64,000 bases of DNA from Halichondria panicea (Eukaryota > Porifera > Demospongiae > Suberitida > Halichondriidae), in contig NC_087381.1 of the NCBI RefSeq assembly GCF_963675165.1, positions 5,333,378-5,397,377 of the forward strand. Direction: 5' to 3'. The notes under the pieces are model-generated. The model worked only from the letters and a program-made list of their open reading frames with translations. It did no database searches and was not told where the DNA came from. Positions 34,758 to 37,832 of this stretch are shown here, in pieces; within the stretch, counting starts at the first letter, position 1, and each line of letters opens with the position of its first letter. A program made the translations under genes and the position numbers.

Positions 34758-37700
34758 CTAATACCAAATTGTATCATTAAAGGTGTCTCGTGCTATATTC
34801 AGTATTTTCAGAATGTCCTGAGCGCATTTTTCAGATCCAATTAACTCCAGACATTTAATGAGCTCGTAAAAGTGTTTATCACAATCTCCGATACGCTCTG
34901 CAATTACTGTCGTAAGATAATCAGCTCTTTCATGATCAGCGGTACTACTACTAAACTCATCCAAGGCTCCGTAATTGCTTTCAGAAATGACATTTTCGGC
35001 AAACAGGTGATCCCTAAGTCGGAACAAGTAAGTTGGATTTTTTTGTAAACACTCGACAAGCTGAGGTGTAACACTTAAAATTGCATTGTGCTCAGGGCTA
35101 TTTGCACCATCGTTCTCATGGCGGGGTTGCTGCTTAGTGCTGGATGCTGTTGGTGGAGGCTGACGATTTCTTCTGAAAAATGTAGAAAACGACTTCGATA
35201 TTTGTGACAGCACAGATGGTTGAGGAGTCAATTCTGTAGAAAAAAATTCATAATAGTTGTAAAGGGTCAAGATGTATTGGAAGGTCAGTACCTAAAAGCA
35301 GTTGTACAAATTCCGAGGTATACAAGTGACTATAATGACAACACCACAAATGATAATAATACCCTTTGATCTTAATAGGATCGAAGCCAGCTGGCCAAGT
35401 ATGCATGTCTATCCATCATGCATCCATACATATTACAGTCTGTGATGGACAATGCACATGCATGCACGGGTATATATATCATAATTATGTGCATGACTTA
35501 ATTGTATGTTACCTGCAACGACAAAGTAGCAGCGAGGAGAGTCTAGATACAGCGCCAATGTCTCTCCTTGAGATTGGATTCTTTGTGGTTCAATTAGTGA
35601 GAAACTGAACACAGGTGCACTACGATTTGCCTCCCAGTGCGTGGGTATGCATGAAGCTTGTAATACTTGCACACTTCCTCGTCTGTTTTGCTGTCGGTAC
35701 TTTGTCAAGCGAACTTGTATTCCGTGACGTATCAGGGAAGCATCAGTCATGACTATGTTTATCATATAAACACTACTAATAAGAGAGTAGCCTTGAGGGA
35801 AAATGAACGACGATTTTGATGGATCGTAGACATTAACGGACACAGTTAGATCTTGGTCTTGCGGGATTGCTTCTACAGTACTGACCTGGACACCCTCAGC
35901 ACTCCAGATGGCCTCCTTTTTCACACTGTTTAGACATTCATTGTCTAGTCTATTAAGGTAGTCATCTTTACCTGCACAGTTAAACGTAAGTTAGCCAATA
36001 CATAAACATAATTAATGTAGCTTACAAAGATGGAGTATTGGTGATTGTGGTAGATTGTAGGTGGATATTACTTGGCCATCTTCAAGTATCTCGCATCGAT
36101 CAGCAGCGCAGTAAAACAGCTGTTGTCTACTTGGTTCGAGTCGTTGTTGACAATACTTTCCAATCCAACTTTTTAGGGTACCAACTTTGTCATTTGGGTG
36201 GAATTGTACCTCATTTCTGAAGCCTGTAAAACTTTCAACGTATAGCTTTTTTAGCACCAATAAAGTAATAGGAGTGTCATCACTTTCAATTCCATAATCT
36301 TTTAACTGACACGTTTCATACATCTCCTGGCCTTTAAACATTAGTCTCTGCTCACTGAGAGGTGGGTTGCCTAAAGCAGCTGCTGATATTCTCGCTTTTA
36401 AAGCCAGTACAACTTCTTCAGGGTAAATGTTTAATGTTACTCGTTCACTGTTGTGTTGTACACATACAAGTTTGGGACCTTTTGTTCGTACAATATGCAC
36501 CGTCTGTTCTTGGAGTATACCACAATCTTGTAACTTATCATCATCAGCAAGTATTTTTTCCTGGAAGATTATTTCCTGCTCCTCAATTGGTAACTGATTT
36601 CGTTCAGCTTTATTGACTAAGTCTTTCAATTCCCATATCTTGCTACTGGGCTTGACAGCAATATCCACTGATCGACCATCCGGCAAATGAGCATAGATTT
36701 GTATGTCTGTTTCACGTAATCTGAAAACAAGGCGTAGTGTGCTCTCTTTTTGAATATTGTAATCGGACAATGTCCGACCATCTTCGAGTTGCTTTCCAGC
36801 AAATATCAAACGCTGCTGATCTGGTGGGATTCCTTCTTTGTCTTGAATTTTGGTCTTCACATTTTCAATTGTGTCTCTAGCTTCAACTTCGAGAGTGATC
36901 GTTTTACCAGTCAAAGTCTTAACGAATATTTGCATTCCTCCACGGAGCCGGAGTACTAAATGACATGTGTCTTCTTTTTGTATGTTGTAATCGGACAATG
37001 TCCGACCATCTTCGAGTTGCTTTCCAGCATATATTAAAATCTGCTGATCTGGTGGGATACCTTCTTTGTCTTGAATTTTGGTCTTCACATTTTCAATTGT
37101 GTCACTAGCTTCAACTTCGAGAGTGATGGTTTTACCTGTCAAAGTCTTAACGAATATTTGCATTCCTCCGCGGAGCCTAAGTGCTAGATGAATTGTGCTC
37201 TCTTTTTGAATGTTGTAATCCAATAATGTTCGACTACCCTCAAGTTGCTTTCCAGCAAATATCAAATGCTGCTGGTCTGGTGGGATACCTTCTTTGTCTT
37301 GAATTTTGGTCTTCACATTTTCAATTGTGTCACTAGCTTCAACTTCGAGAGTGATGGTTTTACCTGTCAAAGTCTTAACGAATATTTGCATTCCTCCGCG
37401 GAGCCTAAGTGCTAGATGAATTGTGCTCTCTTTTTGAATGTTGTAATCCAATAATGTTCGACTACCCTCAAGTTGCTTTCCAGCAAATATCAAATGCTGC
37501 TGGTCTGGTGGGATACCTTCTTTGTCTTGAATTTTGGTTTTCACATTTTCGATTGTATCACTGGTTTCAACTTCAAGGAAAATGGTTTTACCAGTCAAAG
37601 TTTTAACGGCTATTCGAAGTTGCACATCCACAGTGCCTCCGTGCTCCACACCACAAGCACTGAGAGTCAACTCATTTTGTAGACACTTGGATCTCGAGGT

Positions 37701-37832
37701 CAGAAAGAAGTGTTCAGGTGGAATACCTTCTTGATGATGGATCTTGGATTTCACTGTCTCCACTATATGGTCAGCATCCACATCGATTGGTATCACCTTA
37801 CCAGTGGGAGTTTGATAAAATAGCTGAGACAT
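34758..37832 (-). CDS. Eight-unit ubiquitin-like/ZU5-like/CARD-like protein
   Basis: Exons 37832-36026, 35971-35513 and 35233-34758 join in phase to 913 aa. Start: ATG at 37832 ([11 protein letters not shown]). Exon 1 encodes eight ubiquitin-fold units. Unit 1 is divergent; units 2-5 are near-canonical ubiquitin ([27 protein letters not shown]) keeping K6, K11, K27, K29, K33, K48 and K63; units 6-8 are divergent. Junctions 2/3, 3/4 and 4/5 are RLRGG-MQIF as in polyubiquitin; unit 5 ends RLRE without GG. Exon 2 (residues about 603-755) resembles ZU5 ([19 protein letters not shown]). Exon 3 has a Ser/Pro/Gln linker, then a six-helix-type region (about 815-905; [20 protein letters not shown]) like a CARD. 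Probably a cytoplasmic innate-type adaptor; CARD versus other death folds is an inference. Confidence 0.82.

Follow-up and report, generated by a model that had tools for sequence, protein, structure and literature searches.

Proteins that carry a ZU5 fold upstream of a death fold are known in ZU5-UPA-Death architectures (ankyrin, UNC5, PIDD) and FIIND-CARD architectures (NLRP1, CARD8), and the FIIND has an autoproteolytic site of the H-F-S type near the end of its ZU5 part. Fusions that involve ubiquitin have been described separately. Portions of Kaur et al. 2021 (PMC8195603) report animal proteins in which polyubiquitin is fused to DEDD2-clade TRADD-N adaptor domains, and list FIIND and UPA-ZU5 fusions alongside them. 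Passages of PMC6019448 present the tandem ubiquitin-like domains (Ubls) of OASL as polyubiquitin mimics that activate RIG-I or enhance its signalling, and excerpts of a 2026 survey (PMC12909245) place ubiquitin among the domains drawn in NOD-like receptor architectures of Dysidea avara. Here we analyze a gene on the reverse strand of a 64,000-nucleotide stretch of the sponge Halichondria panicea (C5:5333378-5397377 of the 131-Mb genome; hereafter the window), whose 913-residue product is predicted to run from eight ubiquitin-like units through a ZU5 fold to a CARD fold. We favor the reading, with a probability of slightly under one half, that this gene encodes a linear, Met1-type chain of ubiquitin carried by a CARD adaptor.

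We found no report of the array-ZU5-CARD order among the papers listed by searches of an open-access library, which does not cover most subscription papers; this agrees with the first-pass annotation, which knew of no described family with this order. Its further statement that such a scaffold would be a new way of building a signalling platform without E3 ligases was too strong, since OASL and the polyubiquitin-TRADD-N fusions are precedents, as far as the sections of PMC6019448 and PMC8195603 cited above describe them. What appears to be new, within the literature searched, is the order itself.

The three exons join into a single 913-codon frame across two GT..AG introns (Table 1), which confirms the clean reading frame and introns reported for this gene. 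Exon 2 is symmetric (1-1) because both introns are in phase 1. Pfam ubiquitin matched eight stretches of the protein (E 3.8e-155), as expected from the proposed eight-unit array. The same searches, which had been suggested as a check for all three domain types, did not reach ZU5 or CARD.

Consistent with exon 2 encoding a ZU5 fold and exon 3 a CARD fold, both assignments were supported by predicted models combined with structure search, and profile-profile comparisons that included negative controls also favored them. The CARD model has a six-helix fold that is nearer to CARD than to Death, and when the CARD-part profile was compared with the PDB the Apaf-1 and BCL10 CARDs led the matches, with DpsA and SlyA chains intermixed. 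For the ZU5 model the best structural matches were ankyrin ZU5 domains, with NLRP1-FIIND and UNC5b ranking lower. These folds came out only with family alignments, models and profiles built from the sponge's own genome. Residues 603-913, the ~310 residues after the array, had no Pfam match up to E 10 and the PDB sequence search was empty too; PF00791 (ZU5) matched 0 of the 10 members of alignment A3 and was absent from the window protein, and CARD (PF00619) reached 12.4 bits, short of its 23.9 cut-off. The ZU5-like and CARD-like domains proposed by the first-pass annotation are thus borne out by structure prediction of the C-terminal part, in which both folds were predicted, and by the profile comparisons, though Pfam calls neither.

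The order of these two folds recalls ZU5-UPA-Death and FIIND-CARD proteins, in which ZU5 likewise lies upstream of a death fold. Unlike those proteins, the window protein has a ubiquitin array in front and no room for a UPA domain, because only ~42 residues, modeled at low confidence, separate ZU5 from CARD; no UPA was found in this gap, where Pfam was empty up to the same threshold. By eye, no H-F-S-type motif precedes the last strand of ZU5, while an F-x-F-S earlier in the ZU5-like domain is invariant in 10/10 rows and a nearby H is not. The gene resembles the TRADD-N fusions in that polyubiquitin is joined to an adaptor domain of apoptosis or immunity but differs in the partners, which in this family are ZU5 plus CARD or Death; TRADD-N gave no Pfam match in our scans, though Pfam may miss divergent copies. 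With OASL it shares encoded tandem ubiquitin-like domains. OASL, however, has two of them behind an OAS-like domain, whereas the window gene encodes its CARD within the same polypeptide, and no OAS-like domain was found in residues 603-913, the sole array-free part and, as noted, devoid of Pfam matches.

We identified at least five further loci with an array and a ZU5-like exon, 27–83% identical, and at each of those listed in Table 1 the relative of exons 2-3, or of exon 2, is preceded by a ubiquitin-like array. Across ten array-type loci that we chose from the genome list (the window and L021-L029), six have the ZU5-like exon. C-terminal CARD-like domains occur in the window gene, L022, L024 and, with a broken frame, L023, while Pfam Death is above cut-off in L021 (25.1 bits) and L026 (23.6) and below it in L027 (17.1). 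P0004, the database protein of the L026 locus, has the Death part (18.4 bits) and lacks the CARD-like frame that lies downstream at this locus. The last exon of L029 is Death-like by eye, with no Pfam match; L028 was assessed by eye only; and no adaptor exon appeared in the stretch read at L025, which has seven Ubl stretches. Sequence comparison places the window gene in a sponge family with several loci, whose proteins combine an array with a predicted ZU5 domain and, at the C-terminus, a death fold (CARD in the window gene). The names of its sibling proteins in the database – 'polyubiquitin-like' (P0001) and 'polyubiquitin-C-like isoform X2' (P0003/P0004) – mask the adaptor half, and among the database matches no orthologue was assigned to any named species besides H. 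panicea.

The siblings also bear on whether the model has been mis-joined, with exon 1 a polyubiquitin-like gene and exons 2-3 from another transcript. The exon 1 frame does run into a stop shortly past the donor site, and P0007 (606 aa), the window locus's own database entry, is the exon 1 frame alone. Exon order, splice sites and intron phases are nevertheless common to all four gene models that we built, and applying the window gene's splice pattern to L022, the closest sibling, gave a protein identical letter for letter to P0001. P0003 and P0004 are two more database proteins with an array and a ZU5-like part. Furthermore, exons 1, 2 and 3 are 76, 90 and 86% identical to those of L022, whereas the flanks are 44–48% identical, intron 2 is 53% identical and not of the same length, and intron 1 aligns over 43 positions, of which 31 are identical, with gaps in 47 columns. 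We therefore rejected the possibility of two genes run together, as the first-pass annotation had done: a single gene is supported because its siblings keep the exon order, phases and splicing and because P0001 matches the L022 model built by the same rules. A mis-joined model is accordingly extremely improbable.

P0006 probably represents an allele of the window gene, based on its match to exon 1 outside the near-canonical units (73/73 N-terminal and 223/229 later residues), though it may instead be a very young paralogue. Only its exon 1 was seen, and this carries one extra 76-residue ubiquitin unit. At ubiquitin position 65, where the sponge's own ubiquitin has a serine, unit 4 and the P0006 units at residues 148 and 300 have D, Y or H. 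P0012, a further database protein, is 63% identical over a third of the query.

The array is not uniform. Over the scored part, units 2-5 are identical to textbook ubiquitin at 58–65 of 76 positions, whereas units 1, 6, 7 and 8 share only 21–25 of 76, so that the earlier description of near-canonical repeats holds for the former and fails for the latter. Divergent units occupy matching positions in the siblings. Relative to the sponge's own ubiquitin, units 2, 3, 4 and 5 have 9, 6, 4 and 5 differences, where the count for unit 5 includes its GG to ET change and unit 2 additionally lacks M1 and Q2. Measured against their nearest counterparts among the 11 ordinary polyubiquitin units of the sponge, units 3-5 have a nonsynonymous divergence (dN) of 0.05–0.07 alongside 35–40 silent differences in 74 codons, which is saturated in units 3 and 4 and corresponds to a synonymous divergence (dS) of 2.1 in unit 5. 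Units 3-5 are under strong purifying selection and have been ubiquitin-like for a long time. Saturation of silent sites therefore indicates old retention, and we rejected recent capture from a polyubiquitin gene, with silent sites saturated in units 3 and 4 and nearly so in unit 5.

On the proximal face, which M1 readers use, residues Q2, F4, K6, T12, T14, E16, Q62 and E64 are retained in units 3-5, which are thus G76-M1-linked units with an intact proximal face, and all seven lysines, K48 included, are retained in units 2-5. On the distal I44 face, L8, I44 and G47 are retained in units 2-5 and R42, V70 or H68 is changed in each. Changed sites in units 3-5 are S20, R42, F45, D52, G53, S57, S65, L67, H68, V70 and L71, plus the GG of unit 5; unit 2 further carries A19T. 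In a hand-listed count of window units 3-5 and four allele units, which are not independent events, 28 of 30 substitutions fell at residues 42-74, leaving out the GG positions and unit 2. In ubiquitin-fusion degradation (UFD), an in-frame N-terminal ubiquitin marks a protein for the proteasome, and the retained K48 and other lysines would suit a UFD-like role in which the N-terminal stretch holds down the amount of CARD for as long as degradation proceeds unblocked. Such a degradation-coupled adaptor is nevertheless highly unlikely: the changes R42H/I and V70A speak against it, and it leaves unexplained both the ZU5 domain and the divergent units at positions shared between siblings.

Two ordinary polyubiquitin genes in the genome (C10:4.23 Mb and C10:5.00 Mb) have head-to-tail units, as does the window gene, which also shares with sponge polyubiquitin exact RLRGG|M at three junctions, A19 (except in unit 2) and T28. 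It differs in that only 4/8 units are near-canonical, RGG|M stands at only 3/7 junctions (between units 2 and 3, 3 and 4, and 4 and 5), unit 5, the last of the near-canonical ones, ends in RLRET, and the array is followed by 310 residues bearing ZU5 and CARD. It is therefore not of the UBB/UBC type, in which all units are ubiquitin, every junction is RGG|M and the tail is short. The run of potentially cuttable bonds is closed at both ends, by the absence of GG between units 1 and 2 and by ET between units 5 and 6. RGG|M is found at 0/5 junctions in L022 (one is RGGG|M), 2/5 in L023, 2/11 in L021, 0/7 in P0003 (one HGG|M), 0/7 in P0004, 4/8 in P0006 and 1/5 in P0012 (one more HGG|M), and is thus absent from 3/5 siblings (L022, P0003, P0004).

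These junctions define the main rival reading, that the product is a modified polyubiquitin precursor in which deubiquitinases cut the three RGG|M bonds to give units 3 and 4 as variant ubiquitins with exposed GG tails, a unit 1-2 piece and a shortened unit 5-8-ZU5-CARD adaptor. R42 is important for activation of ubiquitin by E1 and has been lost in units 2-4. Cells nonetheless process polyubiquitin precursors at RGG|M junctions, and deubiquitinases such as USP5 process linear polyubiquitin polyproteins (both from parts of PMC3690481); the units are held close to ubiquitin, E16, required by OTULIN, is retained, and the RGGG|M of L022 and HGG|M of P0003 might still be cut. Precursor-like processing fits the three bonds of the window copy but not the siblings that have none, and release of free ubiquitin is unlikely as the family's shared function because 3/5 siblings lack RGG|M. 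The genome also already contains two ordinary polyubiquitin genes. We consider this reading unlikely.

The position of the cuttable bonds, between the blocked N-terminal unit and the CARD part, also suits an integrated-decoy sensor, in which the near-canonical units imitate ubiquitin chains as bait, and the CARD part is freed or triggered when a microbial deubiquitinase or ligase attacks them. The several sibling loci, the probable allele with an extra unit and the fast evolution of the CARD exon (dN/dS 0.98 against L022) are in keeping with this, as is the between-individual variation of the immune repertoire described for this sponge in portions of PMC8242945. Siblings without RGG|M bonds would require a different trigger, however, and we regard this as a less probable explanation than a precursor.

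We then considered potential readers of the favored linear chain. According to excerpts of PMC4737190, the UBAN of NEMO touches both ubiquitins of an M1-linked pair, and parts of PMC3690481 include E16 of the proximal ubiquitin among its contacts. CC2-LZ, the domain with the UBAN motif, had 14 matches in the genome, all below the Pfam cut-off. The motif DFxxE[RK] is present in 14/14 (for example YKEDFENERKDRE) and absent from the 127,996 codons of the window's six frames; it is support rather than proof because the profile itself rewards the motif. UBAN-motif exons, mostly close relatives of one another, cluster at C1:4.86-5.03 Mb, and their sequences suggest an expanded family of ubiquitin-chain readers. 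PF18091, which we take to be linked to HOIP, was above cut-off at two places in the genome. The OTULIN profile (PF16218) had no match but was silent in every control too, and so is uninformative on absence.

Several observations weigh against an encoded linear chain on a CARD adaptor. The bonds at the three RGG|M junctions could be cut as in a polyubiquitin precursor, and in L023 even the first junction is RGG|M. Residues of the distal face have changed: R42 is replaced in units 2-4, units 2 and 3 carry V70A, and unit 5 has H68R; unit 2, without M1-Q2, also carries F4A and T14F. The best UBAN match scored 33.3 against a cut-off of 35.3, stops lie inside 2/14 matches, and the motif finding is partly circular. 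Exon 3 shows no constraint against L022 (dN/dS for exons 1-3: 0.50, 0.46, 0.98; against L023: 0.35, 0.40, 0.46, with exon 3 partial), and exon 3 of L023 is frame-broken. With Foldseek, neither the ZU5 nor the CARD model had a match at or below E 0.001, a second set of seven ZU5 segments matched only weakly in profile comparison (probability 20), and the sole PDB match of the ZU5-part profile was a beta-xylanase (E 0.089). Finally, protein database searches, one of which computed scores only for the 8000 candidates sharing most words, returned no named full-length protein for the window locus.

The encoded linear-ubiquitin scaffold of the first-pass annotation nevertheless remains plausible from the sequence. 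It draws on a gene structure supported by sequence and siblings, on predicted folds, and on the purifying selection, closed ends, proximal face and reader-signature exons described above; from these we infer that the array would remain intact and be bound by readers, and that the protein would have a polymerizing CARD and an immune role. In the proposed mechanism, near-canonical units 2-5, with true G76-M1 bonds and both ends closed, would recruit linear-ubiquitin readers, the CARD would join or seed a CARD assembly, and the ZU5 domain would dock or regulate. The platform would need no ligase for its ubiquitin decoration because the encoded units would themselves recruit the readers.

Additional genes with related parts were observed elsewhere in the genome. 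At C2:7416000-7425900 (L053), two receptor-like genes with ZU5 domains and CARD-like ends adjoin the C2 array gene. One of them, P0005 (LOC135332050, C2:7.416-7.426 Mb), has a Pfam ZU5 and a C-terminal CARD-like stretch that Pfam does not call, is 71% identical over 38% of a query taken from the C2 array genes, and by eye has an apparent signal peptide and membrane segment where the window gene has its ubiquitin array; the sequences hint at local exchange of CARD exons at C2. Three more CARD-exon copies lie in tandem downstream of the neighbouring family member at L022 (L022 positions 4913-5188, 6559-6807 and 7944-8186), and 2/3 of these matches contain stops. In L030, L032 and L033 a Ubl domain precedes a conserved C-terminal domain, which matches PARP weakly in L030 (18.9 bits, below cut-off) and was judged by eye in the others, and L034 and L035 encode a Ubl fused to IBR zinc domains in a parkin-like order.

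Within the window, a candidate miniature inverted-repeat transposable element (38201-38584) lies ~370 bp upstream of the start codon, with 35-bp terminal inverted repeats (97%) flanking a tandem repeat; 11 genome matches were listed for its 62-base end, including the element's own two ends. A 36-bp unit is present in four perfect tandem copies at 33295-33438. The window also contains a fragment of a ROCO-type protein (2549-3689, - strand; weak COR-A match, below cut-off) and two similar sulfotransferase frames (Sulfotransfer_2) in opposite orientation (11368-12180, +; 14703-15470, -).

Table 1. Features of the window gene (positions in the window) and related loci in the H. panicea genome. aa, amino acids; pLDDT, predicted local distance difference test.
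Feature	Position	Strand	Remarks
Exon 1, whole ubiquitin-like array (units 1-8)	36026..37832	-	ATG at 37832
Unit 1, divergent N-terminal Ubl (aa 1-73)	37614..37832	-	no GG at end
Unit 2, near-canonical ubiquitin without M1-Q2 (aa 74-147)	37392..37613	-	ends RLRGG
Unit 3, near-canonical ubiquitin (aa 148-223)	37164..37391	-	differs from the sponge's own ubiquitin at 6 sites; ends RLRGG
Unit 4, near-canonical ubiquitin (aa 224-299)	36936..37163	-	4 differences (R42I F45Y S65D L67C); ends RLRGG
Unit 5, near-canonical ubiquitin (aa 300-375)	36708..36935	-	ET in place of GG
Unit 6, divergent Ubl (about aa 376-451)	36480..36707	-	match 378-448
Unit 7, divergent Ubl (about aa 452-528)	36249..36479	-	match 461-521
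Unit 8, divergent Ubl (about aa 529-603)	36026..36248	-	match 530-603
Intron 1	35972..36025	-	54 bp, phase 1
Exon 2, predicted ZU5-fold domain	35513..35971	-	symmetric phase 1-1 exon
Intron 2	35234..35512	-	279 bp, phase 1
Exon 3, whole	34758..35233	-	
Exon 3 first part, likely disordered linker	35106..35231	-	pLDDT <50 at residues 1-41
Exon 3 second part, predicted CARD-fold domain	34764..35105	-	six helices
L022	C5:5.319 Mb		exon 2-3 relative; opposite strand, about 48 kb away, 13 kb outside the window
L023	C17:3.496 Mb		exon 2-3 relative
L021	C5:0.317 Mb		exon 2-3 relative
L024	C2:7.414 Mb		exon 2-3 relative
L026	C2:8.150 Mb		shares ZU5-like exon

In vertebrates, linear ubiquitin chains that a ligase builds on death-fold platforms have a central place in innate signalling. 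We tentatively propose, as a possibility less secure than the encoded chain itself, that this sponge family consists of adaptors with a built-in Met1-type chain of variable length, whose CARD or Death assemblies would recruit readers ligase-free and whose unit number, varying between individuals, may tune that recruitment. If the encoded chain is real, an early-branching animal would have a ligase-free version of linear-chain logic, with reader-type exons in the same genome.
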